Assembly (NCBI RefSeq): GCF_019654955.1
Contig: NZ_BPEV01000001.1
Coordinates: forward strand, 124,001 to 188,000
DNA length: 64,000 nucleotides
Source: Shewanella sp. KT0246
Lineage (GTDB): Bacteria > Pseudomonadota > Gammaproteobacteria > Enterobacterales > Shewanellaceae
Reading direction: 5' to 3'
The notes under the pieces are model-generated. The model made no database searches. It was not told the DNA's origin and saw only the letters and a program-made list of their open reading frames with translations. The first letter of the stretch is position 1. Each line of letters starts with the position of its first letter. Made by a program: the position numbers and the translations under genes. Below, in pieces: positions 7,933 to 54,924 of the stretch.

Positions 7933-10296
7933 TTAGCTGTAACTCGACTGAGTTAACCACTGAGTCAACCGAGTCGCATCGACTGGTTTTGAAAGATAAA
8001 AACCTTGCCCCATTTCACAGCCACGCTGCGTTAACCATTTTAGTGAACCCTCATCTTCAATCCCTTCTGCCACGACTTTTAGCCCTAAATTATGGGCAAG
8101 CTGTAGTGTTGAGTTAACAATGATTTGATCGTCTTCATTAATCATAAGGTTTTGCACAAAAGACTTATCAATTTTGAGTTCATCAACAGGTAACTGTTTA
8201 AGTTGCGCTAATGAAGAATAACCCGTGCCATAATCATCAATAGACAGTTTTAGACCGTGTTGCTTAAGCTCTGTTAACTGTTTGATGGCATGCTCAGGAT
8301 CGGCAACAACCGCATCTTCGGTGATTTCCAGTGTAAGCGCCTCAATCGGCACGCGTTTATCTTTTATGGTCTGTAATACGTAATCACAGAACTGATTATC
8401 TTTTAAATTTTCAGGTGAAATATTCACTGCGATAGCAAGCTCAATGCCTTGCTGTTGCCAACGAAGGTATTGATCCAATGCTTCATTAATCACCCACTGT
8501 GTTAAGGCGTTCATTTGACCCATTTGTTCTGCGATGGAAATAAAGCTATCTGGGGGGATCATGCCTCTGACAGGGTGTTGCCAGCGAACTAATGCTTCAA
8601 CATGAGTGACTTTATTCAGTGTTAAGTCGAGTTTAGGTTGGTAGAACAGCACTAGCTCATCTTGTTCGATAGCAGGTTTTAAATCATTAACTAACTGAAG
8701 CCTGTCTAAGGTATTAACATCTATTTGCTGGTGGTAGATTTGTAGGTGTAAACGATTTTTCTTGGCATGTTGAAGCGCGGTATCAGCTTGGCGTAATAAG
8801 GTTTCAAGATCGCTAGGGTAATAAACAAAGCTGATCCCTATGGTGGTTTGTAAGTGCAAAGAGATATCTTGATAGCAAAACTCAGTTTCAACGCTTCGCT
8901 GGATTTTTTTAATTAATGCTGTCAGTGTTTTTTGTTCTGTATGTTCGATAGCCAGTACAAATTCATCTCCACTTAAACGACACACTAAATCAATTTCATC
9001 AAAGCTTGCTAAACGTCGTCCAATTTCTTTGATGACAACATCGCCAACGATATGACCTAAAGTACCGTTTATTTCTGTCATTCTGCGAATGTTGATTAAA
9101 CAGATAGCGATAGGCGACTTATCTTCAAACCAATTTGAAGTGACTCGTATAAGCTCGTTTTTGTTGCCAAGACTTGTAAGAGGGTCATGATAGGCCTGAA
9201 AAGTAATTTTGTTTTCTCGACTTAATATGGCCTGTTGCATCGCGGTAATTTCTTCTGCTAGCTCGTGCATCTCCGCGCTGCTACCAACCTCGACTTTAGA
9301 ATTATAATTCCCCTTGGCAATGAACCTTGCTTGTTTAATGAGTAGCGTAAGGGGTTTAGTTACGCCTCTAGCGATAACAAATGCAACAAATAAAGAAATT
9401 GGTAACATCAGTAGAATAAGTAAAACTTGTTGAAACCAATGTTTTTGCGCTGATTCTAGTGCATCACTGCGACTTAAAAACATGAAAGCATGTAGTTGGC
9501 GTTCATCATTGTCTTTTAGGCTGACTTCACCTAAATCAGATTGCCATAAAATATAATCATCATGGGGTTGATTTTGCTTAATAAAATCGGATATGACTTG
9601 GTTGTCTGTTTTAGAAAAACTTGAACTTGATAGGCTGATTAACTGATTAGTGTACTGCTCAGCAGTGAGTACGAATCCTGTGTTTAGACCTGTTTGTTGT
9701 GATAGTGACTGAGTTAACTCATCACCGATGACATAACCAAATCCCACCCAACCTATGATGTTTGAAGCTCCACTGGTTAATGGCGAGAAACGTAGCTGAT
9801 AAACATGGTTCTCGAGAGGGTATAAAGGGCTAATAGTCTCAAATTCCGTCGCCAATGACATACGGAATGCTTTGTCTTGCTCAGGGCCAACCTTTACTTT
9901 TCCCTGATTTGGCCCATCTGGGGTAGTGAGTAATTGACCGATGACTTTTCCTTCAATATCAACGGCAATGGCAAGATCTGCATTGATGCGTTTTCGATGA
10001 TTGTTTAATGCGACGAGAAAGCTACGGCTGTCATCGTCAATAAAGACATCTTTAAGGCCAAAATCTTTCGCTGCAGTTTCCGCAAAAGCAGATAAATAAT
10101 AATTTCGATTGTCGTATTCAGACTTAAAAACTAACTCTGCCACAGAAAGTTGGTTTGCAAGTTGGTGCTGCTCTAGGCGCTTATTAGTGTAATAAGTAAT
10201 GGCAAACGAGATTGCCTGCACTGCGATTAAAAGCACCATAAAAAAGGCAAAAATGCGAGTTTGAATACTGTTGAACGATTTAAGCATTTTTAGCAT
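7933..10296 (-). CDS. Membrane-bound c-di-GMP regulator: periplasmic sensor, HAMP, GGDEF, EAL
   Basis: Order of parts: membrane helix ~13-35, periplasmic sensor region ~36-280, second helix ~285-305, HAMP linker, GGDEF domain ~370-515, EAL domain ~535-780. The GGDEF motif is degenerate (SGDEF, ~441-445), so cyclase activity is doubtful. The EAL domain keeps key motifs (EALVRW ~567, NISPEN, LEITED, SIDDYGTGYSSL, LKIDKSF, VAEGIE), so it is probably an active c-di-GMP phosphodiesterase. Its ATG shares one base with the stop of the upstream cupredoxin gene (TAATG), which indicates translational coupling. The periplasmic domain facing a secreted copper protein suggests the sensor may read that protein or its redox state; this is inference. 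Confidence 0.88.
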   Translation of the reverse strand: MLKMLKSFNSIQTRIFAFFMVLLIAVQAISFAITYYTNKRLEQHQLANQLSVAELVFKSEYDNRNYYLSAFAETAAKDFGLKDVFIDDDSRSFLVALNNHRKRINADLAIAVDIEGKVIGQLLTTPDGPNQGKVKVGPEQDKAFRMSLATEFETISPLYPLENHVYQLRFSPLTSGASNIIGWVGFGYVIGDELTQSLSQQTGLNTGFVLTAEQYTNQLISLSSSSFSKTDNQVISDFIKQNQPHDDYILWQSDLGEVSLKDNDERQLHAFMFLSRSDALESAQKHWFQQVLLILLMLPISLFVAFVIARGVTKPLTLLIKQARFIAKGNYNSKVEVGSSAEMHELAEEITAMQQAILSRENKITFQAYHDPLTSLGNKNELIRVTSNWFEDKSPIAICLINIRRMTEINGTLGHIVGDVVIKEIGRRLASFDEIDLVCRLSGDEFVLAIEHTEQKTLTALIKKIQRSVETEFCYQDISLHLQTTIGISFVYYPSDLETLLRQADTALQHAKKNRLHLQIYHQQIDVNTLDRLQLVNDLKPAIEQDELVLFYQPKLDLTLNKVTHVEALVRWQHPVRGMIPPDSFISIAEQMGQMNALTQWVINEALDQYLRWQQQGIELAIAVNISPENLKDNQFCDYVLQTIKDKRVPIEALTLEITEDAVVADPEHAIKQLTELKQHGLKLSIDDYGTGYSSLAQLKQLPVDELKIDKSFVQNLMINEDDQIIVNSTLQLAHNLGLKVVAEGIEDEGSLKWLTQRGCEMGQGFYLSKPVDATRLTQWLTQSSYS

Positions 10297-42320: not shown

Positions 42321-42346
42321 TGATCTTAAAAACATTACAACACGTA
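42321..42346 (+). promoter_or_regulatory. Candidate ECF (ChrR/RpoE, ECF11-like) promoter of ybgA-phrB
   Basis: TGATCT (-35) and CGTA (-10), separated by exactly 16 nt, 30 nt upstream of the ybgA start. The same element with the same spacing precedes the lipid cluster at 48034. It resembles the TGATC...GTA promoter of the singlet-oxygen sigma factor RpoE of the ChrR system described in Rhodobacter and Vibrio-type bacteria. Confidence 0.6.
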
Positions 42347-42375
42347 ATGCTGTTTAAGCCACAAGGAGTCGTATC

Positions 42376-43335
42376 GTGAATAAAGAAGTCTTTAATCCAG
42401 AAAAAATACAAATCGGTATCAGCAGCTGCCTGTTAGGTCAAAAAGTACGTTTTGACGGCGGCCATAAAAACTCAAATTACTGCAATATCGACCTCGCTCC
42501 ATTTTTTGACTACATCAGTGTTTGTCCGGAAATGGCTATAGGTATGGGTGCTCCGCGTAAGACTATTCGTCAAGAGCTCGACGGCGATAAAATTTATTTA
42601 AAAAGCGCCGATGGCAGTATTGATGTAACCGATAAGCTTGAAGAGTATAGCCAAAAACGCGTTGGTGAACTCGATTTTATTGGTGGTTACATTCTTTGTG
42701 CTAAGTCCCCAACTTGTGGAATGGAGCGGGTGATTGAATACAAGTACGGTACCAATAATGGTACCAAAAGTGGCGTGGGTGTATTTGCAAAAAAATTAAT
42801 GGATACCTACCCAGAGTTGCCTGTGGAAGAAGAGGGCCGCTTGCATGACCCAGTAATTAAAGAAAATTTTATCACTCGAGTATATGCGTATCATGAGTGG
42901 CATACCTTGCAAGCTGAAGGCTGGACCAAGCATAAACTAATGCAGTTTCATGCGCGTTATAAGTACCTTTTAATGGCTCATAGTCCTCAATGGTATCGTG
43001 ATTTAGGGCCGATATTAGCGAATATTGATGATCTTGATGCCACTGCGCAAACCTATTTTGTAGGTTTTATGACGGCGTTAAAGATTAAAGCGACCCGTAA
43101 AAATCACACCAGCACTCTGCAGCATATTCAAGGGTACTTTAAAAAGCACCTGTCAAAAGAGCAGAAGCAAGAGCTGACTGAATCAATCATGAAGTATCGT
43201 GAAGGACTACTGCCTTTACTTGTGCCTATCACGCTGATTAACCATTATTTACGAGAATATCCGACCCCGTATATTGAAGGGCAGGTTTATCTTAATCCAC
43301 ATCCTGAAGCGCTAAGACTTCGTTACGCTTACTAG
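42376..43335 (+). CDS. DUF523-DUF1722 (YbgA-type) protein
   Basis: 319-aa protein with two domains: DUF523 (~8-150), with SSCLLGQKVRFDGGHK and AKSPTCGMERV, whose Cys residues suggest a metal or Fe-S site, and DUF1722 (~190-305), similar to E. coli YbgA (HTLQAEGWTKHKLMQFHARYKYLLMAHSP). This gene is often found next to photolyase, as here (phrB begins 135 nt downstream). Start GTG at 42376, with AGGAG seven bases upstream. Exact function is unknown; linkage to light or oxidative damage response is inferred from context and from the candidate ECF promoter. Confidence 0.87.
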   Translation: MNKEVFNPEKIQIGISSCLLGQKVRFDGGHKNSNYCNIDLAPFFDYISVCPEMAIGMGAPRKTIRQELDGDKIYLKSADGSIDVTDKLEEYSQKRVGELDFIGGYILCAKSPTCGMERVIEYKYGTNNGTKSGVGVFAKKLMDTYPELPVEEEGRLHDPVIKENFITRVYAYHEWHTLQAEGWTKHKLMQFHARYKYLLMAHSPQWYRDLGPILANIDDLDATAQTYFVGFMTALKIKATRKNHTSTLQHIQGYFKKHLSKEQKQELTESIMKYREGLLPLLVPITLINHYLREYPTPYIEGQVYLNPHPEALRLRYAY

Positions 43336-43470: not shown

Positions 43471-44997
43471 ATGATGAAAACTCTGATTTGGTTTAGACAA
43501 GATTTACGCCTTGCTGACAATCTAGCTGTTTGTGAAGCTTTTGAATTTGCACTGCGACAATCAGCGTCACAAGAGAAATCTTCTGCTCAAGTCGAGGCTA
43601 TATACATAGTCAGCCCTCTGCAATGGCAAAGTCATGATGTAGCGGCAATTCAAATAGATTTTATTGAACGCCATGTGAATATTTTGGCGCAAGGATTAGC
43701 CGCTCTTGGGGTCAAACTCAATGTGGTTACATTACCTTGGTTTGATGATGTAATGGATTGGATGCCAAGTTTTTTGGCCGAAAATCAGATTGAGCAAGTC
43801 TTTGCCACCCAAGAGCCTGAATTTAATGAGCGCAAACGAGATCAGCAATTGCTGGATATTGGTTTGCCCATCACCTTTGTTGCTCAAGATTGCATTATTA
43901 ATGCAGGTGAGGTGAACAATCTATCAGGGCAGATGTATAAAGTGTTCACGCCATTTTCTAAAAAGTGGCGTGAGATAGTAGCAAGTAAAATGATTGTACC
44001 TTTATCAGTACCTACCCCTATCGGTGCTGCGCTTGCAACTCCTGCTGCTATCAAATTTGATGCAGATAAACGTTCAAGTAAATTGTGGCGAGCCGGTGAA
44101 GGCGAAGCGAAACGAATACTCGCTCAATTTTGCCAGAACCATATTCAAGATTATCAGCTCGATAGGGATTTCCCTGCGCTAGACAATACCAGTAAATTAT
44201 CACCTTACTTAGCGATTGGCGTGATTAGTGCTAAGCAATGTTTAGCCGCTGCGTTAAACCATTATCCTGATGTGCTGGTGGACGACACTAGTCCTGCTAA
44301 AACTTGGATCAATGAACTAGCGTGGCGAGAGTTTTATCGTCATTTGTTAGTCGCTTTTCCGCGCCTTTCAAAAGGTAAAAGCTTCAATGAAAAAGGCGAC
44401 TATGTACTATGGCGAAACGATAAAACTGAATTTGCGGCATGGTGTGAAGGGCGCACGGGTTATCCAATCGTTGATGCCGCGATGAGGCAGCTTAATCAAA
44501 CGGGTTGGATGCACAATCGTTTAAGAATGGTCGTAGCGAGTTTTCTGACTAAACACTTGCTGATTGATTGGCGCTGGGGTGAAAAATATTTTAGAAAACA
44601 ATTAATTGATGGTGATTTAGCGGCCAACAACGGTGGCTGGCAATGGTCTGCTGGCACAGGCTGCGACGCTCAACCTTATTTTAGAGTGTTTAACCCGATG
44701 AATCAGAGTAGTAAATTTGATCCAGATGCCAGCTTTATTAAACGATTTGTTCCCGAGTTATCGAATCAACCGCTAAAAGCCATTCACCAGCCGCTATTTG
44801 TTGAAGGAGCTGATGATTCAGCACTCGATACGATGGACTTATTTTGTGTAGACTCTATAGAGGTCGGCTTTGGAGCTGATAGCGCTGTAAGCAACAGTTC
44901 AGCTGAGGCTTCAACTGTTGCGTATCCATCACCGATTGTAGAGCATAGCTCTGCGCGAAAACGCGCTATTGAGGTGTTAAGTTCGTTAAAGCGATAA
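43471..44997 (+). CDS. phrB: Class I deoxyribodipyrimidine (CPD) photolyase
   Basis: 508-aa flavoprotein that repairs UV-made pyrimidine dimers using light. The N-terminal antenna domain begins KTLIWFRQDLRLADN. The FAD-binding C-terminal half has WINELAWREFYRHLL, GRTGYPIVDAAMRQL, TGWMHNRLRM and NNGGWQWSAGTGCDAQPYFR, all hallmark class I photolyase blocks. The start is the first of two adjacent ATGs (43471), with AAGG five bases upstream; an open frame back to 43438 adds a hydrophobic stretch unlike homologues. A C-terminal extension of ~45 residues (from ~455) is low in conservation. Probably co-expressed with ybgA. Confidence 0.93.
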   Translation: MMKTLIWFRQDLRLADNLAVCEAFEFALRQSASQEKSSAQVEAIYIVSPLQWQSHDVAAIQIDFIERHVNILAQGLAALGVKLNVVTLPWFDDVMDWMPSFLAENQIEQVFATQEPEFNERKRDQQLLDIGLPITFVAQDCIINAGEVNNLSGQMYKVFTPFSKKWREIVASKMIVPLSVPTPIGAALATPAAIKFDADKRSSKLWRAGEGEAKRILAQFCQNHIQDYQLDRDFPALDNTSKLSPYLAIGVISAKQCLAAALNHYPDVLVDDTSPAKTWINELAWREFYRHLLVAFPRLSKGKSFNEKGDYVLWRNDKTEFAAWCEGRTGYPIVDAAMRQLNQTGWMHNRLRMVVASFLTKHLLIDWRWGEKYFRKQLIDGDLAANNGGWQWSAGTGCDAQPYFRVFNPMNQSSKFDPDASFIKRFVPELSNQPLKAIHQPLFVEGADDSALDTMDLFCVDSIEVGFGADSAVSNSSAEASTVAYPSPIVEHSSARKRAIEVLSSLKR

Positions 44998-45233: not shown

Positions 45234-45262
45234 TTGTTTTTTATTAAAAAGGCTTGATAACT

Positions 45263-46474
45263 ATGCTAAATATTGATGATCCAGCTGAAACTGAAAAAAC
45301 CGCTGCAATATGGCGATTAGCATTCAGACCTTTCTTCTTAGGTGGTGCAGCTTTGGCGATGTTGTACATCCCACTATGGTTAATGGGCTGGTATACACCT
45401 GAGTACAGTTTATTTAACAGTAACTTTTGGTCAAATGTATTGCCGCTATGGTGGCATCCTCATGAGTTACTATTTGGTTTCGCTATGGCGATTGTGTGCG
45501 GCTTCTTACTCACAGCAGTACAAACCTGGACTAATCAACCTAGTCTAAAAGGTCCCACTCTTGCCATCACATTTAGTAGTTGGTTGTTAGCAAGGCTGTT
45601 ACTCCTGCTGCCTTTTGATATTCCATTATATTTTCCTGCACTATTTGACAGTATATTTTTAGGCATTGCTGCTTTTACGATGTGGCGTTGTGTTTATCGT
45701 GTTAAGCAATGGCAAAATATCGGTTTTTCGATCATGCTTACAGTAGCCCTGATTGTTAATCTTGTGAGTTATTACGCATTACAAGAACGTAATTTCATTT
45801 TAGCTAATCAAATATGGCAAGGAATGTTATTTTGGCTGGCGCTGTTGATTACCATTGTGGGAGGAAGAGTTATTCCTTTCTTTACTGCAATGCGAGTTAA
45901 GCAAACCAAAGCCGAACCGATTTTTGCACTAGAAAAAAGCCTATTAGTATTAATGATTACACTGGTTGTGCAAGCCATTTTTAAAGTTTTACCTATGGCA
46001 GTTGAACAAGTGTTATTGATTAGCGCTGGTATATTGCATTTGATTCGAATAAGTCGCTGGTTGCCTCATAAAACATTGAAAGAGCCAATGCTGTGGTCGC
46101 TGCATTTATCATATTTATCTTTACCCATCGCTTTGTTGGGCTTAGGTTGGTTCATTAATAATGAATTTGCTTACCGAAGTTTATTACACTTATTTGCCAT
46201 AGGTTGCTTAGCTTCATTGTGTTTATCAATGATTTCTAGAGTATCTCTTGGGCATACCAGCAGAAATATATATCAAGGCCCGAATATGGTATTGGCTTTT
46301 GCCAGTTTACCTATTGCAGCTTTATTGCGTGCGGTAATGCCGTTGATATTTCCGGCGCAAACCCAAACTTGGTTATGGTTAGCGGGTGGATTTTGGTTTT
46401 TAGCTTTTGGACTTTTTGTTTGGCATTACAGTCCAATTTTATCGCGTCCTCGAATTGATGGACGTCCAGGTTGA
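45263..46474 (+). CDS. nnrS: NnrS-family membrane protein
   Basis: 403-aa polytopic heme/copper-type inner-membrane protein, about 12 helices, that eases damage under nitric-oxide stress. The family start is visible (WRLAFRPFFLGGAALAML), as are WWHPHELLFGFAMAIVCGFLLTA with conserved His and GGRVIPFFTAMRV. The ATG at 45263 is chosen, with AAGG about ten bases upstream; a TTG at 45254 is too close. An NsrR-like site lies directly upstream, and nrfA follows after 52 nt, so the two likely form an NO-inducible operon. Confidence 0.92.
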   Translation: MLNIDDPAETEKTAAIWRLAFRPFFLGGAALAMLYIPLWLMGWYTPEYSLFNSNFWSNVLPLWWHPHELLFGFAMAIVCGFLLTAVQTWTNQPSLKGPTLAITFSSWLLARLLLLLPFDIPLYFPALFDSIFLGIAAFTMWRCVYRVKQWQNIGFSIMLTVALIVNLVSYYALQERNFILANQIWQGMLFWLALLITIVGGRVIPFFTAMRVKQTKAEPIFALEKSLLVLMITLVVQAIFKVLPMAVEQVLLISAGILHLIRISRWLPHKTLKEPMLWSLHLSYLSLPIALLGLGWFINNEFAYRSLLHLFAIGCLASLCLSMISRVSLGHTSRNIYQGPNMVLAFASLPIAALLRAVMPLIFPAQTQTWLWLAGGFWFLAFGLFVWHYSPILSRPRIDGRPG

Positions 46475-46526
46475 TAACAACATTATGTTCTCGAACCATT
46501 TTTTGATGATTTTTAAAGGAAGAGTT

Positions 46527-47933
46527 GTGAATATGCAATTAGCATTGTTTGCTAAAAAACACATAGCAGTTAGCCGATTAAGCAAGCGTGTTAGCACTAT
46601 CTTAATTTCTATTTTAGGTGCTACAACCTGTGCAACAGCCATTGCCAAAGCTGACGTTAACGAAGCTAAGTTTCCAGACCAATTTAAAACTTGGGCTGAA
46701 ACTGAAGAGCAAACAGAACGCGAAGATATGCTTGCTAGTTACCCTGCCAATATTATTTTATGGGCGGGCTCTTCTTTTGCTAAAGAATATCACAGCCCTC
46801 GTGGTCACCAATTTGCAGTGGCGGATGTCACTCAAACATTACGAACTGGCGTGCCACCAAAAGAGGGCGAAAAGGGCACTTCAGCCAGTTGTTGGACTTG
46901 TAAAACACCTGATGCACCTCGTCTAATTAAAGAAATGGGTTTTGAAGGATACTCAGCATCTAACTTTACTGATTTAGGCACTGAAATTAACAGTGTGGTT
47001 TATTGTACAGACTGTCATGTAGACGGCAGTGCTGACTTAGCTTTACCACGTCCTCATGCACAAAATGCAATGAAAAAAACTGGGATACCTTTTGATAAAC
47101 AAGATGTGTCGATGCAAGGTGCACAAGTGTGTGGCCAATGTCATGTGACCTATTATTTTCAGCCAGAAAAAAGCAATGTGGTTAACATGCCGTGGATTTT
47201 CGGCAGCGACACTGACAATATCCTGAAGTACTACGATACCCGCCGTTTTTACGAGTGGATCCACCCAATTTCGAAAACGCCAATATTAAAAGCGCGTCAT
47301 CCTGAGTTTGAGCATTGGAGCCGCAGTAAGCATGCTGAAGCGAATGTGACCTGTATTACCTGTCATATGCCCGTTGAAGAAAATGCCAAAGGCGAAGAAT
47401 TTACCAACCATAAAGTTGATAAAGCACTGCCGCATTTCGATAAAACCTGTATCGGGTGTCACGATAGCAAAGAAGAGATTACTGCCAAGCTAGATGCTGA
47501 CAAGCATGAAATTGAAACAATGGCACGTGAAGTTGAAGGCTTATTGGTTAAAGCTCACTATGAAGCTAAGGCGGCATGGGATGCAGGTGCTAACTGGGAG
47601 CAAATGAACAGTGCAATTATGGCTATTCGTCATGGCCAATGGCATTGGGACTTCGCTATGGCATCTCACGGACTATATGCACATAATCCAGATGAAGGTC
47701 GTATGTTACTCACTCGAGCCACATCACAAGCCAAAATGGCGCGAGCCGTGTTAGCTCAAGTGTTAGAAGGTTTAAAAGTGACTAAGGTTGAATACCCAGA
47801 TATTAGCTCTAAAGAGTCTGCACATGCAGCTGTGGGTATTAATGAAGCAAAACTGTCTGAAGCTAAGCAAATGTTCATTAAGGATGAAGTTGAAAAACAC
47901 TGGAATCCAATTGCTGTAAGAGGTTACAAGTAA
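46527..47933 (+). CDS. nrfA: Pentaheme cytochrome c nitrite reductase (ammonia-forming)
   Basis: 468-aa periplasmic enzyme reducing nitrite to ammonium and also able to reduce NO. Heme sites: the catalytic CXXCK (CWTCK, ~122-126) and four CXXCH (CTDCH, CGQCH, CITCH, CIGCH). VCGQCHVTYYF contains the Tyr next to the Ca site, KTPILKARHPEFEHWSRSKH carries the conserved His ligands, and HMPVEEN is typical. The signal peptide is long (ISILGATTCATAIAKA region, cleavage ~42). The start is GTG 46527 (AGGA six bases upstream) or ATG 46533; an open frame runs back into nnrS but is not used. No nrfBCD follows. Pairing with nnrS suggests a NO-detoxifying role. Confidence 0.95.
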   Translation: MNMQLALFAKKHIAVSRLSKRVSTILISILGATTCATAIAKADVNEAKFPDQFKTWAETEEQTEREDMLASYPANIILWAGSSFAKEYHSPRGHQFAVADVTQTLRTGVPPKEGEKGTSASCWTCKTPDAPRLIKEMGFEGYSASNFTDLGTEINSVVYCTDCHVDGSADLALPRPHAQNAMKKTGIPFDKQDVSMQGAQVCGQCHVTYYFQPEKSNVVNMPWIFGSDTDNILKYYDTRRFYEWIHPISKTPILKARHPEFEHWSRSKHAEANVTCITCHMPVEENAKGEEFTNHKVDKALPHFDKTCIGCHDSKEEITAKLDADKHEIETMAREVEGLLVKAHYEAKAAWDAGANWEQMNSAIMAIRHGQWHWDFAMASHGLYAHNPDEGRMLLTRATSQAKMARAVLAQVLEGLKVTKVEYPDISSKESAHAAVGINEAKLSEAKQMFIKDEVEKHWNPIAVRGYK

Positions 47934-48000: not shown

Positions 48001-48034
48001 AAAAGCGTATAGAGCAATCTATACGCTTTTTTTT
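48001..48034 (+). terminator. Terminator after nrfA
   Basis: AAAAGCGTATAGA / TCTATACGCTTTT stem with a 4-nt loop and eight T. Its last T abuts the next promoter element. Confidence 0.92.
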
Positions 48035-48059
48035 GATCTGTAGCTAACGAATAGGCGTA
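48034..48059 (+). promoter_or_regulatory. Candidate ECF11-like promoter of the lipid cluster
   Basis: TGATCT-N16-CGTA, the same bases and spacing as the element before ybgA-phrB. It lies directly behind the nrfA terminator and about 180 nt before the first gene of the cluster, so a long leader would result. Confidence 0.55.
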
Positions 48060-48239
48060 TTGACCGTTAAATACATTATTTAATTTTTGTTTGATTATTT
48101 TTAAGACAAATTCCTCAACTAAGATTAATATTAATAGATAACTACTCGTTTTTATTGTTAAAAAGTAAAAGTGACAAGCTTGTTGAGTAACGATAAAAAA
48201 TAAACAAGATGTTTAAAGAGATGGTTCAAGGAGAGTTAA

Positions 48240-48791
48240 ATGCACAGTAGCACTAATCTTGTTAGTGAAATGCCTGAGCCGATGAGCTTCGATGATTATA
48301 CGCAGCCACAAATCATTGATGACTTCATTAGCATGTACCAGCGGCTTAACAAGGATACTCTGCACCTTTTAAGTCAGGTATACAGTAATAATATTGTGTT
48401 CCAAGACCCTTTGCACAAAGTAGAAGGGCTAGCTAATCTGACGAATTATTTTGCCAATCTCTATGAAAACGTTGATTCGATATCATTTGATATACAGCAA
48501 GTGAATGTTTCCCAGTCACTGTCTCAATCCCAATCCCAATTACAAGCAAAATCACAGTCGCAACTAGAAGCAGAACAAAAGTCACAAGCCTCAATATTCT
48601 GGAAAATGACTTACAGCCATAGCAAGCTTAATAGCGGGCGTGATATTCATGTGGAAGGTATGAGCCACCTTATTTTCAATGACAAAATTACTTCTCATCG
48701 TGATTACTTTGACCTTGGTCAGATGCTTTATGAACCGTTTCCTATATTGGGCAAGCTTATTCAAATGGTTAAGTCTAAGGCATCCTCATGA
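48240..48791 (+). CDS. NTF2-like (SnoaL) protein with Ser-Gln repeat insertion
   Basis: 183-aa protein of the nuclear-transport-factor-2-like fold: IIDDFISMYQRLNKDTLHLL, VYSNNIVFQDPLHKVEGL and the C-terminal VEGMSHLIFNDKITSHRDYFD match small bacterial members that accompany the SDR/amine-oxidase/DUF1365 cluster. A run of S-Q-rich residues at ~91-117 (SQSLSQSQSQLQ...) interrupts the domain. Ribosome site AAGGAGAG is just before the ATG. Likely a structural or ligand-binding helper of the pathway; first gene, overlapping the SDR gene by four bases. Confidence 0.82.
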   Translation: MHSSTNLVSEMPEPMSFDDYTQPQIIDDFISMYQRLNKDTLHLLSQVYSNNIVFQDPLHKVEGLANLTNYFANLYENVDSISFDIQQVNVSQSLSQSQSQLQAKSQSQLEAEQKSQASIFWKMTYSHSKLNSGRDIHVEGMSHLIFNDKITSHRDYFDLGQMLYEPFPILGKLIQMVKSKASS

Positions 48792-49579
48792 CAGCTGATA
48801 TTCAAGCCAAAACCAAAAAAACGAGTCAGGTATCGAACTCTAAAATTGCGGTACTAATAACTGGAGCAAGTTCTGGTATCGGTCTAGCACTAGCAATGAA
48901 GTACGTTGATCAAGGCTATCAGGTGTTTGCTTGTGGACGTAATGAGCAATCACTGCAAAATATCAAAGGAGCTTATCCGCTTGTTTTTGATATTAATGAT
49001 AAAACTCAAATTGAAAATGCTGCCCAGCTACTTAAAGCAGCGTTGATTAAATCTCAATCCAGCCTAAACTCTGTGGTACTGAATGCTGGCAGTTGTGAGT
49101 ATATCGATGATCCAGTTCAGTTCGATGGGGCTTTATTTGAACGGGTAATTCAGACCAATGTCATTTCAATGGGCTATTGCTTACAGCACTTTTTACCCTT
49201 AATTGCGACAAACGGCAGGGTGGGGTTAATGAGTTCAAGCGCAACATATTTACCTTTTCCAAGAGCTGAAGCCTACGGAGCATCCAAGGCTGCAGTTAAC
49301 TATCTTGCCAGCAGTCTACGTTTAGACTTGAAAGCTCACAATATTGGCGTAAGTGTAATTTGTCCTGGTTTTGTGAAAACACCATTAACAGACAAAAATG
49401 ACTTTGCTATGCCGATGCAGATTAGTGCCGATAATGCCGCTGACGAAATCATTTATGGCATGAAGATAGGCCGAAATGAAATACATTTTCCAAAGCGCTT
49501 TACCTTGATACTGAAGTTTTTATCTTGCTTGCCTAACGTGATAGTTAACAGCTTACTCAGCCCAAAACCAAATAATTAA
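48788..49579 (+). CDS. Short-chain dehydrogenase/reductase
   Basis: 263-aa classical SDR. The cofactor motif is ITGASSGIGLALA (TGxxxGxG), NAG is at VVLNAGSC, and the catalytic Ser-Tyr-Lys set is seen in GLMSSSATYLPF and AYGASKAAVNY (YxxxK). It should oxidise or reduce a hydroxyl or keto group, here probably on a lipid given the neighbours. Start ATG overlaps the preceding stop (ATGA). Confidence 0.92.
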   Translation: MTADIQAKTKKTSQVSNSKIAVLITGASSGIGLALAMKYVDQGYQVFACGRNEQSLQNIKGAYPLVFDINDKTQIENAAQLLKAALIKSQSSLNSVVLNAGSCEYIDDPVQFDGALFERVIQTNVISMGYCLQHFLPLIATNGRVGLMSSSATYLPFPRAEAYGASKAAVNYLASSLRLDLKAHNIGVSVICPGFVKTPLTDKNDFAMPMQISADNAADEIIYGMKIGRNEIHFPKRFTLILKFLSCLPNVIVNSLLSPKPNN

Positions 49580-49650: not shown

Positions 49651-50919
49651 ATGAAAAAAATTGCCGTAGTCGGATCAGGGATCTCAGGATTAACATGCGC
49701 CCATTTACTTAGCGAGTTGCATGAGGTGACTGTATTTGAAGCTAATGATTACATTGGTGGTCACACAGCAACAATTGATGTTGAAGTTGCAGGAAAACCT
49801 TATGCTATTGATAGCGGGTTTATAGTGTTTAATGACCGAACCTATCCAAGATTTCAAAAGCTAATGGCACGCTTGGATATTAAGTCATTACCGACTGAAA
49901 TGAGCTTTAGTGTACAAAACACTAAAACGGGGCTTGAGTATAATGGCCACACTCTTTGGAGCATGTTCGCTCAACGCCGTAACTTATTAAAACCTGATTT
50001 TTATCGTTTTTTAGCAGAGATCGTTAAATTTAATAATCAATGCAAAGGAATTTATGAAGCTGAAGATTATCAAATTGAAACCTTGGGTGAGTTTTTAGAT
50101 AAAGAAGGGTTTTCTGACTTCTTTAGTGAGCATTATATTTTGCCAATGGGCGCAGCAATATGGTCTGCCAGCATCAATGATATGCGCGCGTTTTCACTGC
50201 GATTCTTTATTCGTTTCTTCCACCACCATGGTTTGCTCAATATTAGCGACCGCCCGCAATGGTATGTCCTTGAAGGCGGCTCACGAAGCTACATTCCTGC
50301 CCTTATCAAGCCGTTTAAAGAACGACTGTTTTTAAACTCAGGGGTGACTTCCATTGAGCGCAAAGCAGATGGGGTTAATATCCGAATAAATAATGGTGAA
50401 GTGCAATATTTTGACGAGGTAGTACTGGCTTGTCACAGTGATCAAGCATTAGCCATGTTAACTGATGCCTCAGAAGATGAGCTGCAAGTATTAGGTGCTA
50501 TGGCTTATCAAAACAATGAAGTGGTTTTACACACCGATGTGGGATTATTACCAAAAAGAAAAGCAGCTTGGGCCAGTTGGAATTATCGTCTCGAAGGTAC
50601 TGACGCAGAAGATATTGCCAATAAACCTGCTAGCGTGACTTATAACATGAATATTTTACAGCGTTTGCCAAAAGACGCGCCTACATTTTGTGTCACCCTT
50701 AATCAGACTGACCTGATTGATAGCAGCAAGATATTACGTAAATTTAATTATGCCCATCCAGTATTCAATGAAGCCAGTATGAATGCCCAAAAAGAACGAT
50801 CGCGGATTTGTGGTGTGAGGCACACACATTTTGCGGGTGCTTATTGGTATAACGGCTTCCATGAGGATGGCGTACGCAGTGGCTTAGATGTCTGTAATAA
50901 CTTTGGCATCAGCTTATGA
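49651..50919 (+). CDS. FAD-dependent amine-oxidase-type oxidoreductase
   Basis: 422-aa flavoprotein. The dinucleotide motif GSGISGLTCAHLL is at residues 8-20, followed by FEANDYIGGHTAT and GVRHTHFAGAYWYNGFHEDGVRSG near the end, the latter a conserved FAD-contact block. This family is encoded next to DUF1365 and cyclopropane-synthase-like genes in many bacteria, and in plant cyclopropane synthases it is fused as the N-terminal domain, so it probably acts on the same acyl chains (desaturation or oxidation). Overlaps DUF1365 by four bases. Confidence 0.88.
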   Translation: MKKIAVVGSGISGLTCAHLLSELHEVTVFEANDYIGGHTATIDVEVAGKPYAIDSGFIVFNDRTYPRFQKLMARLDIKSLPTEMSFSVQNTKTGLEYNGHTLWSMFAQRRNLLKPDFYRFLAEIVKFNNQCKGIYEAEDYQIETLGEFLDKEGFSDFFSEHYILPMGAAIWSASINDMRAFSLRFFIRFFHHHGLLNISDRPQWYVLEGGSRSYIPALIKPFKERLFLNSGVTSIERKADGVNIRINNGEVQYFDEVVLACHSDQALAMLTDASEDELQVLGAMAYQNNEVVLHTDVGLLPKRKAAWASWNYRLEGTDAEDIANKPASVTYNMNILQRLPKDAPTFCVTLNQTDLIDSSKILRKFNYAHPVFNEASMNAQKERSRICGVRHTHFAGAYWYNGFHEDGVRSGLDVCNNFGISL

Positions 50920-51734
50920 TTGCAGACTTAAGTGATTGCTCTAGCCAATTTAGCAGTGGCATTTATCAAGGGGAAGTGAGTCACAGACGCTTCACTCCCA
51001 AATCTCATAGCTTTAGCTATGACATGGCACTGATGGCGATAAATCTTGATGAAATCAGACAACTTGAAAAAGTAAGCCGGTTATTTGGCATGTCAAAATG
51101 GTCGTTACTTAAATTTAACCCGCAAGATTACCTAAATAGCTTAGCTAGTCAGTTTGAGGAGCAAGCTGTTGAACAATTAGAAACTGATAACAGCATATTG
51201 TCCCCAGCATCAGCGCTTAAGCAACGGGTGATGTGGACCATTAAGCAACTTGGAGCCAAGTTTGATTGCGATGAAGTTATATTTGCTGGTCAAATTAGGC
51301 ATTTCGGCTTTTATTTTAGTCCTGTCAACTTCTATTTTTGTTATCAAGCTGGCCAGCCGATATATATGCTGGCGGAAGTCAGTAATACTCCTTGGGATCA
51401 ACGCCATTGTTATTTAGTTGATATTCAAGATACTCAAACCACAGACAAAGTATTTCATGTTTCACCTTTTTTAAACCTCGATATGCATTATCAATGGAAA
51501 ATTGTCCCCCCTAGTAAACGCCTTAATGTCACTATTCAAAATCGCGATGATGATAATAAAAAGCTGTTTGATGCAAGCTTACATTTACAGCGTAAGCCGT
51601 TTAGCTCGGCTAATGTCAGGCAGATGCTGACAGCTTTTCCTGTGATGACAATGAAGATTATGTGGGGTATTTACTGGCAGGCATTTAAGTTATTTGTCAA
51701 AAAAATTCCTTTTGTTGCACATCCTCAAACTTAA
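50916..51734 (+). CDS. DUF1365 protein
   Basis: 272-aa protein opening FSSGIYQGEVSHRRFTPKSHSFSYDMALMAINL, the DUF1365 signature (G-x-V-x-H-x-R-x-x-P-x-x-H-x-F). RHFGFYFSPVNFYFCY and AEVSNTPWDQRHCYLV follow, then VSPFLNLDMHYQW. A lipid-linked role is known only from gene neighbourhoods with amine oxidase and cyclopropane synthase; biochemical function is not established. Its start overlaps the preceding stop. Confidence 0.9.
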   Translation: MIADLSDCSSQFSSGIYQGEVSHRRFTPKSHSFSYDMALMAINLDEIRQLEKVSRLFGMSKWSLLKFNPQDYLNSLASQFEEQAVEQLETDNSILSPASALKQRVMWTIKQLGAKFDCDEVIFAGQIRHFGFYFSPVNFYFCYQAGQPIYMLAEVSNTPWDQRHCYLVDIQDTQTTDKVFHVSPFLNLDMHYQWKIVPPSKRLNVTIQNRDDDNKKLFDASLHLQRKPFSSANVRQMLTAFPVMTMKIMWGIYWQAFKLFVKKIPFVAHPQT

Positions 51735-51810
51735 ATTAAACCAAAAGACATCTTGTTTCGTACTGAAAACCAATCGATACAGAAGCATTAAGTAGGAAGC
51801 GGAGAGATAC

Positions 51811-53082
51811 ATGGAAAATACAGCAACGAATGCAAGCTTAGTACAAGCGACTATCTCAGACGGTTTTGCAAAGAAGATTTTATTACGTGCATTACAACAT
51901 CTCTCTGGTGGCTATTTAACAATAGTTAGCTCTGACGGCAAATCCGCTGCAGAGCAAAGCCTTTCTTTTGGTGATTTTGAATCCGATTTACATGCAACGA
52001 TACAAGTCTCTCATCCAAGTTTTTATAAACAGATTATTTGGGGCGGCTCTATTGGAGCAGGTGAAGCTTACATCCAAGGTCATTGGTCTAGTCCTGATTT
52101 GACTAAAGTGGTGCAGTTGTTTGCACGTAATCTTGCTTTGCTGGATAACATTGAGCGTTACTTTTCATGGTTTAGCGTTGGAATGAACCGACTGACTCAT
52201 GTTTTTAATCGCAACTCTGCTGCGGGGTCTAAGCGCAACATTTTGGCCCACTATGATTTGGGTAATACGATGTATGAGCAGTTTTTAGATAAAGAAATGC
52301 TTTATTCAAGTGCACTATATCCGCACAGCGGAGCAAGCCTAGAAGAAGCGCAGCTGCATAAACTACATACCATTTGTGAACGTTTAGATTTAAAACCCGG
52401 TCAAACTTTGTTAGAAGTCGGTACAGGTTGGGGCGCTTTAGCAATATATGCTGCCAAGCATTTTGATGTTGATGTAACAACCACAACCATATCAGATGCA
52501 CAGTACGACTATGCTGTTGCGAGAGTGGAGCAAGAAGGCCTTGGCAATAAAGTCACCCTGTTAAAAGAAGATTACCGTTTGTTGACGGGCGAATATGACA
52601 GAGTGGTTTCAATTGAAATGATTGAAGCGGTTGGGCATGAATACTTACCTGGATTTTTTAAAAAACTAGAAACATTGTTAAAACCAAATGGCCGCATGCT
52701 AATTCAAGCTATTACCATAGCGGATCAACGCTACGACAGTTACCGTAAAAGCGTTGATTTTATTCAACGCTATATATTCCCTGGTGGTTGTTTACCGTCG
52801 GTGAGTGAGATGAATAAGCATATCGCCAAGCAGACCGATATGGTGGTTTGGTCCATTGACGATATGGGCAAAGATTATGCACAAACCCTCAATCAGTGGC
52901 ATGAACGTTTTGATAAGGCGCAACAACAGATTAAGCAGTTAGGCTATGGTGATGATTTCATCCGCATGTGGAAATTTTATTTGAGTTACTGTGAAGGTGG
53001 ATTCTTAGAACGTACCACCAGCACTGTGCACCTTGTTGCGGTGCGACCACAATATCGCACAACTTTAGCAAGCGGTGCTTAA
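51811..53082 (+). CDS. Cyclopropane-fatty-acid-synthase-like SAM methyltransferase
   Basis: 423-aa enzyme. SAM site: LLEVGTGWGALA (~200-211). Lipid methyltransferase blocks: HYDLGNTMYEQFLD, EMLYSSALYP, SIEMIEAVGHEY, DFIQRYIFPGGCLPS. Compared with E. coli CFA synthase, three catalytic-site residues differ: Cys139 is Ser167, His266 is Gln299 and Tyr317 is His364, while Glu239 is kept (Glu272). YSSA, EMIEAVG and L-x-Q are shared with plant-type cyclopropane synthases, so this is that branch, not the canonical Cfa. It may cyclopropanate or methylate unsaturated acyl chains. 76 nt after DUF1365, 3 nt before DUF2878. Confidence 0.9.
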   Translation: MENTATNASLVQATISDGFAKKILLRALQHLSGGYLTIVSSDGKSAAEQSLSFGDFESDLHATIQVSHPSFYKQIIWGGSIGAGEAYIQGHWSSPDLTKVVQLFARNLALLDNIERYFSWFSVGMNRLTHVFNRNSAAGSKRNILAHYDLGNTMYEQFLDKEMLYSSALYPHSGASLEEAQLHKLHTICERLDLKPGQTLLEVGTGWGALAIYAAKHFDVDVTTTTISDAQYDYAVARVEQEGLGNKVTLLKEDYRLLTGEYDRVVSIEMIEAVGHEYLPGFFKKLETLLKPNGRMLIQAITIADQRYDSYRKSVDFIQRYIFPGGCLPSVSEMNKHIAKQTDMVVWSIDDMGKDYAQTLNQWHERFDKAQQQIKQLGYGDDFIRMWKFYLSYCEGGFLERTTSTVHLVAVRPQYRTTLASGA

Positions 53083-53085
53083 ATC

Positions 53086-53610
53086 ATGCTTCTATCTGGC
53101 CATACAAACATCATTAACGCTTGTGCCTTTCAAGTGATTTGGTGGGCCGGAGTGCTTGCTGGAAATCAATTAGTTATTATTCCAGCCTTACTGATTGTTT
53201 GGCATTTTGTTGTCAGTAAACAAAAAAGGCATGACGTAAAAGTATTGTTTATTTGTGGTTTGCTAGGTGTACTTGTTGACTCTTTACTGACAATGTCAGG
53301 CTTTTTTGAGTTTGCAGTATTCCCTTTATGGCTCGGGCTACTTTGGGGCTATTTTGCGATTTCATTGAACTACAGCTTGGGGTTATTTAATCATTTACCC
53401 ATCGCTGCACAGTCTTTGTTGGGCGGGATTTTTGGCAGTTTGAGTTACATTGGTGGAGCTAACCTCGGCGCCGTTGACTTACCACATGGGTTGCTGGTTT
53501 CGGCTCTAGGTTTATTTATCATTTGGAGCTTACTATTTCCGATGTTTCTACACTTAGCCAACATTATTGGTTTGAAGCATTCTAGAACAGTATTTGAAAA
53601 GAGTATTTAG
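53086..53610 (+). CDS. DUF2878 membrane protein
   Basis: 174-aa inner-membrane protein with five to six helices. NIINACAFQVIWWAGVLAGN and LFICGLLGVLVDSLLTMSG are typical of DUF2878, as is PLWLGLLWGYFAISLNYSL. Function unknown. It nearly always sits beside the cyclopropane-synthase-like gene, as here. It may be a partner for handling the modified lipid. Confidence 0.9.
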   Translation: MLLSGHTNIINACAFQVIWWAGVLAGNQLVIIPALLIVWHFVVSKQKRHDVKVLFICGLLGVLVDSLLTMSGFFEFAVFPLWLGLLWGYFAISLNYSLGLFNHLPIAAQSLLGGIFGSLSYIGGANLGAVDLPHGLLVSALGLFIIWSLLFPMFLHLANIIGLKHSRTVFEKSI

Positions 53611-53611
53611 T

Positions 53612-54379
53612 ATGAGTTTTAGTGAAGACATTACTCTAATTGGGGAAAACGATATGCTGAATAGTCATGAGTTGCTAAGCAAGGTTAATTTATCTTTTAG
53701 TAGGTTGTTAAGCTCATTAAAGTTAACAAGATTACTAGTTGTGACTAGTTCAATGGTTTTTATTACACCAATTACTTTTGCTGAAAATATTGCAGACATT
53801 TCTCCGTTAACCGAACCGCAAGGTATTGATTTACGAACTAACACTTCATCAGAAAGTCGTTCTCCAATAAATAATTCACTAATAAAAAGCGACACACTCA
53901 GCCAAACACAACTCCACAGCTCTACTCAGATTGAAGCTTCATTCGATACTATGCAAATGGTGGGTGAGGCCGATATGGATTTACTTTGGTTTTCAATTTA
54001 CAGCGCCAAGTTGATGTCCGTAGATGGTGAATATCAGCAGAACCAATTTCCGTTGAAACTTGAGATCGAGTATCACCGTGATATCGAAGCCGAAGATTTA
54101 ATTGAAGCCACTGTAGACCAGTGGCAACACATAGGCATCGATAATCAAGATATAGCAAGATTGCAACAACAAATTGAGCAAGCATGGCCTGATGTTAAAG
54201 AAGGCGATAAGTTGAGCTTTATGATGCACAACCAAAATTTAGGGCAATTTTATTTCAATGACCAAGCTCTACCTATTATCCAAGAGCCGGGTTTTGCTGC
54301 AGCATTTTTAGATATTTGGTTATCTGAGCAAACAAGCAGACCGGAACTTCGTCAAGAATTGATTGGAGCCACTAAATAA
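53612..54379 (+). CDS. Chalcone-isomerase-like exported protein
   Basis: 255-aa protein. A signal-like hydrophobic segment (LLVVTSSMVFITPITFA) is followed by a ~65-residue Ser/Thr-rich spacer, then a chalcone-isomerase-like domain (DMDLLWFSIYSAKLM, FPLKLEIEYHRDIEAEDLIEATVDQW, PGFAAAFLDIWLSE). Such periplasmic CHI-like proteins bind fatty-acid-type ligands. The ATG at 53612 directly follows the DUF2878 stop; a TTG at 53594 inside the previous gene is less likely. Its stop overlaps the DUF3833 start (TAATG). Confidence 0.82.
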   Translation: MSFSEDITLIGENDMLNSHELLSKVNLSFSRLLSSLKLTRLLVVTSSMVFITPITFAENIADISPLTEPQGIDLRTNTSSESRSPINNSLIKSDTLSQTQLHSSTQIEASFDTMQMVGEADMDLLWFSIYSAKLMSVDGEYQQNQFPLKLEIEYHRDIEAEDLIEATVDQWQHIGIDNQDIARLQQQIEQAWPDVKEGDKLSFMMHNQNLGQFYFNDQALPIIQEPGFAAAFLDIWLSEQTSRPELRQELIGATK

Positions 54380-54924
54380 TGAAAAAATTCAGCCAAATTA
54401 AATCCTATTGCTTGGTGGCGTTAGCTGCATTGACATTAATGTCTTGCTCTTCAGCATCTATAGAGGATTATGACAAAACCACGCCAATATTAAACCTACA
54501 GACATTCTTCGACGGCAATCTAACGGCTGCAGGTATCGTACAGGATTACTCTGGCACAGTAACACGCAAGTTTACGGTTACTATGGAAGCGAGTTGGCAA
54601 GGCAATAAAGGAATCATCGATGAGCGTTTTATTTACGATGATGGCGAGAAGCAAACACGTATTTGGCACATTACCGACTTAGGCGACGGTAAGTATGAAG
54701 GTACGGCCAATGATATTACTGGCATCGCCACAGGTGAAGCAAAGGGGAGTGCACTTCGCTGGGCTTACGAGATGAATTTAGTCGTGGATGATTCAGAATA
54801 CGAAGTCTATTTCGATGATTGGATGTTTTTAGTCGATGACAATACCATCATTAATAAAAGTGACATCATTAAGTTTGGTGTGACAGTGGCGCAAGTTACC
54901 TTAGTGATTCAAAAACAGCCTTGA
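54379..54924 (+). CDS. DUF3833 lipoprotein
   Basis: 181-aa protein with a lipoprotein signal (ALTLMSC, Cys23) and a lipocalin-like DUF3833 barrel: LNLQTFFDGNLTAAGIVQDYSG, ERFIYDDGEKQTRIWHIT, RWAYEMNLVVDDSEYEVYFDDWMFL. DUF3833 proteins accompany the cyclopropane/DUF2878 cluster in Shewanella and Vibrio. Likely an envelope carrier or sensor for the modified lipid; function unproven. Last gene of the cluster, translationally coupled to the preceding gene. Confidence 0.9.
   Translation: MKKFSQIKSYCLVALAALTLMSCSSASIEDYDKTTPILNLQTFFDGNLTAAGIVQDYSGTVTRKFTVTMEASWQGNKGIIDERFIYDDGEKQTRIWHITDLGDGKYEGTANDITGIATGEAKGSALRWAYEMNLVVDDSEYEVYFDDWMFLVDDNTIINKSDIIKFGVTVAQVTLVIQKQP

Follow-up and report, generated by a model that had tools for sequence, protein, structure and literature searches.

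A 64,000-nucleotide stretch of Shewanella sp. KT0246 (contig NZ_BPEV01000001.1, positions 124,001 to 188,000; hereafter the window) carries a cassette of six genes for a flavin adenine dinucleotide (FAD) amine-oxidase-family protein, a DUF1365 protein, a methyltransferase of the CMAS family usually annotated 'cfa', a DUF2878 protein, a chalcone-isomerase-like protein and a DUF3833 protein. We assign this cassette with high confidence to the furan fatty acid pathway, ufaD–ufaO–ufaM, lying inside a singlet-oxygen and light stress operon. Its membership in the furan fatty acid family is very likely, with the product predicted from the characterised pathway, and by the same analogy the most likely output of the operon is furan fatty acids that serve as antioxidants in the membrane.

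The assignment draws on published pathways. In Rhodopseudomonas palustris, ufaM, ufaD and ufaO are RPA2569, RPA2571 and RPA2570, and the three genes are necessary and sufficient for the furan fatty acid pathway (PMC7380195). The window holds the same three families under predicted ChrR/sigma-E-type control, as in R. palustris and Rhodobacter sphaeroides, and the same ufaD-ufaO-ufaM gene order as RPA2571-2569 (PMC7380195). It differs in having SnoaL/NTF2 and SDR genes ahead of the trio and DUF2878, chalcone-isomerase-like and DUF3833 genes behind it, whereas in R. sphaeroides ufaO is followed by genes for proteins of 402, 186 and 245 residues. The furan pathway genes form part of the core σE–ChrR regulon, and in R. 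sphaeroides the turnover of ChrR by singlet oxygen requires them (PMC6852236). A gammaproteobacterial ufaM, from a consecutive trio in Halomonas, led to 11-methyloctadec-12-enoate when expressed in E. coli (PMC12089945). A review lists Shewanella putrefaciens among organisms that make furan acids and gives a proposed route in which cis-vaccenate is methylated and then acquires a second double bond (PMC3528120). In S. oneidensis, SO_3386-SO_3374 likewise has ybgA, phrB and cfa in one operon with the same promoter motif and was predicted to be under RpoE2-ChrR; the one promoter listed for it lies ahead of SO_3386 (ybgA) (PMC4336711), whereas the window has NnrS and NrfA genes inside the operon and a second site ahead of the lipid sub-operon. 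An NTF2–SDR–FAD–DUF1365–cfa–DUF2878 order has been described in A. salmonicida, where experimental information on its function is said to be lacking (PMC10012899).

All six gene families were matched by Pfam in the place and order given in the first-pass annotation, which had been made from the letters alone. The genes were also separate and overlapping or adjacent, as it had said: by open reading frame coordinates the amine oxidase and DUF1365 genes share 4 bases, 3 bases separate CMAS from DUF2878, and a single base is common to the chalcone-isomerase-like and DUF3833 genes. The limits it had drawn, 49651-54924, hold for these six genes but not for the unit, since a SnoaL/NTF2-like gene (from 48240) and an SDR gene (from 48788), which overlap by 4 bases, stand directly upstream of the amine oxidase gene. 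It had further read the cassette as a split version of the plant cyclopropane synthase architecture. The UfaD-like and CFA-like proteins are indeed encoded by separate genes with DUF1365 between them, not joined in a single chain as in the plant type. The plant likeness is sound as others have reported it, in that Arabidopsis AT3G23510, named AtUFAMD1, matches R. sphaeroides UfaM (Q3J4I7; 34%) and UfaD (Q3IYV7; 38.5%) in one chain while a separate DUF1365 protein, AtUFAO1, matches UfaO (Q3IYV8; 26%) (PMC10940516); in bacteria, however, the split form is the furan fatty acid pathway already characterised. Of the three products that had been left open (cyclopropane, methyl-branched or furan), furan, formed via a methyl-branched intermediate, therefore has the best support. 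Singlet oxygen induces two 'CFA' genes and a DUF1365 gene in Chlamydomonas, and this induction depends on SAK1 (PMC4067076); a similar fatty acid modification is being sought there according to a review (PMC8491031). By sequence, the nearest solved relative of the UfaD-like protein was LkcE.

Conservation of the cassette was examined in loci drawn by their DUF1365 gene, so neighbour counts are conditional on DUF1365, and 'consecutive' or 'adjoining' means among the 15 families searched, where genes of other families could lie between. One set held 41 Shewanella loci including the window, and 80 further loci came from other Pseudomonadota. The FAD gene adjoined DUF1365 in 41/41 Shewanella and 77/80 other loci, and the FAD-DUF1365-CMAS triad was consecutive in 40/41 and 67/80, respectively; the lone Shewanella exception (G113) had its CMAS on a different contig. 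Such recurrence of the triad across the Pseudomonadota goes far beyond chance. In 80 cassette loci from Shewanella, genes of the searched families usually ran in the order ybgA–phr–SnoaL–SDR–FAD–DUF1365–CMAS–DUF2878–Chalcone_3–DUF3833. At genome level, DUF1365 was present in 92 of 117 Shewanella genomes, and the same 92 carried a cassette-type CMAS with 37–43% identity to E. coli Cfa (lists compared by eye). A Cfa-like enzyme at 50–53% identity was found in only 5 of the 117; there was none in the genome of the window, where the only other PF02353 match was weak (29.7 bits). In two Shewanella genomes, G001 (ChrR-negative; L172:9796-11024) and G083 (ChrR-positive; C1:3033244-3034277), CMAS lay in two overlapping frames, a frameshift caused by mutation or sequencing error.

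The motif TGATC-N17-CGTAWT, taken from S. oneidensis RpoE2 promoters, occurred exactly twice in the 64 kb (0.03 expected), at 42321 and 48034, one site ahead of each operon half. In 80 Shewanella loci, 164 motif sites lay on the operon strand and 3 on the opposite strand. These statistics cover 80 of the 92 cassette-bearing Shewanella, the remaining 12 being all ChrR-positive, and a few of the 80 loci are cut by contig ends. An exact site ahead of SnoaL, of the 48034 type, was found in 69/73 ChrR-positive and 1/7 ChrR-negative cassettes; the ChrR-negative genome with a site, G078, was assembled into about 810 contigs, and its ChrR gene may have escaped assembly. The contrast should not be read as a tally of independent losses, since four of the genomes (G113, G065, G030 and G085) have near-identical neighbouring frames. 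Two ChrR-negative genomes have an altered CMAS, G001 with its two frames and G113 with the gene away from the cassette. Over the 117 genomes, cassette and ChrR (above cut-off) were both present in 85 and both absent in 23, with 7 having the cassette only and 2 ChrR only, so that their status was concordant in 108. The genome of the window has an rpoE-chrR pair on contig C21 (TIGR02451, 2.1e-57; sigma-70 and ChrR cupin domains). Matches to rpoE and chrR lay inside the same locus in 21/80 and 23/80 Shewanella cassettes and within about 9 kb of the cassette in 40 and 43 of the 80 non-Shewanella loci; in the cassette named from Mesorhizobium terrae they adjoin it.

In the window, NnrS and NrfA genes are inserted in the light-stress operon, an arrangement seen in 20 of the 80 Shewanella cassettes. 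In the first 41 loci the SnoaL site was found in 29/33 cassettes without NnrS–NrfA and in 7/8 with them, so the internal promoter is independent of that arrangement. A site ahead of the chalcone-isomerase-like gene was present in 19/80 Shewanella loci (18 ChrR-positive, 1 ChrR-negative); a third promoter at this place was looked for in the window and rejected, as there was no match even with one mismatch. A regulator other than ChrR was also considered. One Shewanella locus (L105:3561-4655) had a MerR-family gene between ybgA and phr, and the 135-base gap in the window is too small for one; other loci with a long ybgA-phr gap may carry MerR too.

The CFA-like enzyme was compared with E. coli Cfa (PDB 6bqc; 34% identity, same family) by HMMER alignment, and by MAFFT. 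The active-site (bicarbonate-site) residues of Cfa we take to be Cys139, Gly236, Glu239, His266, Ile268 and Tyr317. Three of these six differ in the window enzyme, Cys139 being Ser, Gly236 Glu and His266 Gln, so the canonical set is incomplete, and Glu239, Ile268 and Tyr317 are kept. The first-pass annotation was right on Cys139 and His266, and the motifs YSSA and EMIEAVG that it listed are both in the window sequence. It had also replaced Tyr317 by His, which was a misalignment: Tyr317 in the E. coli motif 'GADY' pairs with the Tyr of 'GKDY', and the His in question pairs with a later Tyr in 'WYERF'. The Gly236 change had gone unnoticed. With one of three claimed losses misaligned, the argument from lost catalytic residues is weakened. 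Around E. coli cfa, the 3.5 kb examined contained neither a DUF1365 gene nor one for an amine oxidase.

The same positions were followed in 'linked' CMAS enzymes, that is, the nearest CMAS on the same strand in a locus (110 of 121 loci; 82 of the 110 within -100 to 500 bases of DUF1365, in stop-to-stop frames). Gln at the His266 position and Glu at the Gly236 position were found in 110/110, with Glu239, Ile268 and Tyr317 invariant, and position 139 was Ser in 85, Ala in 12, Cys in 12 and Gly in 1. Unlinked CMAS enzymes in the same loci kept His266 in 15/16; Glu236 was present in 15/16 of them and is thus not unique to the cassette. For 15 of the 16, identity to the window enzyme was only 20–29%. 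In the set of 95 rows used for the first tree, Gln266 and Glu236 were found in 69/69 linked rows, compared to His266 in 4/5 and Gly236 in 5/5 canonical Cfa and both His and Gly in five of five other cyclopropane-synthase-like rows. Three of the six sites in Burkholderia cenocepacia Cfa read Arg, Leu and a gap; because the match to it comes in two pieces, it may be frameshifted.

Neither of two trees placed the CFA-like enzyme inside canonical Cfa, the outcome that the first-pass annotation had named in advance as refuting its reading. The first and larger tree (95 rows, built quickly and including long distant rows) gave the cassette group a support of 94. For a more careful tree of 57 rows, picked after the result of the first had been seen, 14 distant unlinked, 2 actinobacterial and 3 long linked rows were dropped and the rest thinned. 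Here 47 linked rows and one unlinked copy formed a single clade (100/100) with canonical Cfa apart (100/99). These trees argue firmly that the CFA-like enzyme is not inside canonical Cfa and suggest that all cassette enzymes likely form one clade, the latter result depending on sampling.

From the characterised pathway, UfaM would methylate cis-vaccenoyl chains on phospholipids with S-adenosylmethionine to give 11-methyl-12-octadecenoyl chains, UfaD (with FAD and O2) would desaturate these to the conjugated 11-methyl-10,12-diene, and UfaO, the DUF1365 protein, would close the furan ring using O2. The sequence predicts that RpoE2 freed from ChrR would drive the operon from both promoter-like sites, together with the photolyase, and the furan would be destroyed by singlet oxygen, as published. 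Once the furan chains are made, five proteins (SnoaL/NTF2, SDR, DUF2878, chalcone-isomerase-like and DUF3833) probably bind, move or dispose of the modified or oxidised chains, which is the weakest step of the scheme.

Several observations weigh against the furan assignment. The identity of UfaM is suggested by synteny and family rather than by direct alignment to the R. sphaeroides or R. palustris UfaM, and the furan product in this organism is predicted by analogy and not from its lipids. On the regulatory side, rpoE of this genome has no exact promoter site in its locus (L006) and only a one-mismatch site at 8837, where 0.58 such matches are expected. Six ChrR-negative Shewanella retain most of the cassette without any exact site, and for these either another regulator serves or the cassette is decaying. 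Outside Shewanella the exact motif lay within 9 kb upstream of DUF1365 in only 27/80 loci, so the strict motif pattern does not extend to the whole phylum. Similar residue changes occur in plant enzymes that form cyclopropane, and Gln266 by itself is therefore compatible with a cyclopropane product. The remaining points all concern a cyclopropane fatty acid synthase that works with helper enzymes and is induced to toughen the membrane, which is how published annotations present these genes: the S. oneidensis cfa, SO_3379, is called a cyclopropane synthase (PMC4336711), as is V. cholerae VC1122, which is reported to be substantially up-regulated by blue light (PMC5241685); no statement that VC1122 itself depends on ChrR was found. 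The window enzyme scores 280 bits against the CMAS family, and in an approximately unbiased (AU) test on the 95-row tree, with 33 gammaproteobacterial cassette enzymes held with canonical Cfa, the grouping was not rejected (p 0.526), so that a sister relation to canonical Cfa is not excluded. Cyclic fatty acids were also found in the strain with Halomonas ufaM (PMC12089945). The E. coli host of that work has its own cfa. We nevertheless consider a cyclopropane product very unlikely. No NCBIfam cyclopropane synthase cut-off was passed (PRK11705 284/400 bits, CPFASynBruc 270/600, CfaB 222/650), DUF1365 accompanies the enzyme in 92/92 Shewanella genomes that have it, the residues at His266 and Gly236 are changed in every linked row, and the Halomonas trio member gave a methyl-branched product.

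There is a comparably small chance that the cassette ends at a methyl-branched or methyl-diene chain, or makes another O2-derived product through a diverged UfaO. The product here is predicted, and in the alignment the DUF1365 protein of the window shares only 22-30% identity with the cassette members furthest from it. Against divergence, its most conserved residues are all kept in the window, namely His23, Arg25, Tyr166, Lys178 and Tyr192, invariant in 75/75 rows, and Asp71 and Glu154 (74/75 each); S. putrefaciens is moreover cited as making furan acids. Alternatively, the last three genes might hold the real function, in envelope lipid trafficking, with the enzymes merely supplying a minor lipid, as their presence in 77-78 of 80 Shewanella loci and the separate promoter-like site of the chalcone-isomerase-like gene in 19/80 would allow. 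This is the least probable of the alternatives: outside Shewanella only 24, 20 and 30 of the 80 loci have DUF2878, Chalcone_3 and DUF3833, respectively, within about 9 kb, compared to 80, 80 and 73 for FAD, DUF1365 and CMAS.

To the conserved DUF1365 residues can be added His31 (69/75) and His164 (68/75). The DUF1365 cofactor was described as unknown in 2020 (PMC7380195). A confident model was obtained (predicted local distance difference test (pLDDT) 94.5, predicted template modelling score (pTM) 0.91), but sequence searches gave no solved relative better than E 0.27 and a fold search with the model gave no match at E ≤ 0.001. The closest folds listed were small barrels, with OlmO and nitrobindin scoring Z 5.9, which is less than the search tool asks of a telling match. 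A calycin-like fold is thus a lead only, and a metal or haem site a guess. In a joint reading that we regard as unlikely, DUF1365 would be a calycin-like, nitrobindin-like barrel with an O2-activating metal or haem held by the polar set His23, Arg25, His31, Asp71, Glu154, His164 and Tyr166, and DUF3833 and the chalcone-isomerase-like protein would form an envelope relay for furan chains or oxidised products. If this were true, the operon would cover the making, use and disposal of a sacrificial antioxidant in the membrane as one complete module, and 'cfa' would be the wrong name for many genes so annotated in marine bacteria.

The DUF3833 protein was modelled at pLDDT 95 and showed a weak likeness to small barrels: the top fold match was a designed barrel (2.3e-4), followed by BFA1 (2.4e-4) and the fatty-acid-binding-like Ycf58 (4.8e-4), with nitrobindin lower (4e-3). 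Its Cys23 was conserved in at least 90% of 57 rows. The accessory partners are not peculiar to Shewanella, since the same ones occur in Cupriavidus pinatubonensis and Azoarcus KH32C (FAD–DUF1365–cfa–chalcone isomerase–MFS–DUF3833–SDR–NTF2). In locus L084 (9628-12228), MFS_2, DUF3833 and SDR genes follow ufaO in a Rhodobacter-like layout, with a divergent rpoE–chrR pair. Protein lengths there resemble those given for RSP1090–1087, and from layout and lengths RSP1088 of R. sphaeroides is probably a DUF3833 protein. Deletion of RSP1087, RSP1088 or RSP1089 leaves the fatty acid profile unchanged (PMC7380195), from which we infer by analogy that the partners act after synthesis. An envelope-lipid role of the DUF2878, chalcone-isomerase-like and DUF3833 proteins, proposed in the first-pass annotation, is plausible. 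DUF2878 corresponds to V. cholerae VC1123, reported as important for colonisation; the words 'furan', 'cyclopropane' and 'light' are absent from the main text of that paper (PMC12971978). A link to anti-phage defence was rejected, as PADLOC, run on five proteins, gave just a weak 42-residue desaturase-like match to the FAD protein.

The pathway was already worked out in Rhodobacter, and the cassette is not new in kind and largely ordinary. What is added here is a corrected residue call, the finding that most sampled Shewanella carry the cassette-type enzyme and not a close relative of Cfa, and a conserved internal promoter that is near-absent where ChrR is absent. The results suggest that the gene usually annotated as cyclopropane synthase in these bacteria is misnamed, and a recheck of cyclopropane-synthase readings in the photo-oxidative responses of Shewanella and Vibrio is suggested. 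In the available parts of the open-licence literature we found no text naming these Shewanella genes as furan genes, though core-regulon work by Dufour in 2008 could already imply this. A gene cluster is hereby tied to chemistry reported for S. putrefaciens in the 1990s, Shewanella becomes a tractable non-phototrophic laboratory genus for the function of furan fatty acids, and the five accessory genes offer testable roles in handling them. Coordinates are collected in Table 1.

Table 1. Promoter-like sites and genes of the operon in the window
Feature	Coordinates	Strand	Evidence or remark
RpoE2/ChrR-type (ECF11) promoter-like site TGATC-N17-CGTAAT	42321..42348	+	Exact match; ahead of ybgA-phr
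ybgA-like, 2-thiour_desulf + DUF1722	42376..43335	+	Pfam
DNA photolyase (phr)	43471..44997	+	Pfam
NnrS gene and NrfA (cytochrome c552) gene, separating phr from the lipid sub-operon	45260..47933	+	
Second RpoE2/ChrR-type promoter-like site TGATC-N17-CGTATT	48034..48061	+	Ahead of the lipid sub-operon
SnoaL/NTF2-like protein	48240..48791	+	Pfam PF12680; 80/80 Shewanella loci
SDR-family oxidoreductase	48788..49579	+	Pfam PF00106; 80/80 Shewanella loci
UfaD-like FAD amine-oxidase-family protein, predicted acyl desaturase	49651..50919	+	Amino_oxidase PF01593, 1.2e-22
UfaO-like DUF1365 protein, predicted O2-dependent furan-forming enzyme	50916..51734	+	PF07103, 2.9e-76
UfaM-like SAM-dependent fatty acyl methyltransferase, usual annotation 'cfa' (SAM, S-adenosylmethionine)	51811..53082	+	CMAS PF02353, 2.5e-83
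DUF2878 protein	53086..53610	+	PF11086, 6e-37; family in 78/80 Shewanella loci
Chalcone_3 (chalcone-isomerase-like) protein, signal peptide by eye, start codon uncertain	53612..54379	+	PF16036, 1.3e-11; 78/80 Shewanella loci
DUF3833 protein, lipoprotein by eye, predicted calycin-like beta-barrel	54379..54924	+	PF12915, 1.3e-69; 77/80 Shewanella loci

Three further arrangements were seen on plasmids outside Shewanella. On a Mesorhizobium terrae plasmid (L223:1-3462), rpoE, chrR and genes for an alpha/beta hydrolase, DUF1295 and a second CFA-like enzyme run divergently from FAD-DUF1365-cfa, and the second CFA-like enzyme and DUF1295 could perform further lipid steps. On a Roseibium plasmid (L215:2637-5233), a sigma factor gene lies upstream of a pair that lacks DUF1365 and consists of genes for an FAD oxidoreductase, which gave no Amino_oxidase match, and for a Cfa-type enzyme with His266. 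In Agrobacterium and Sphingobium plasmids (L216 and L217), a Cfa-like enzyme with His266 adjoins genes for a SulP transporter and a universal stress protein.

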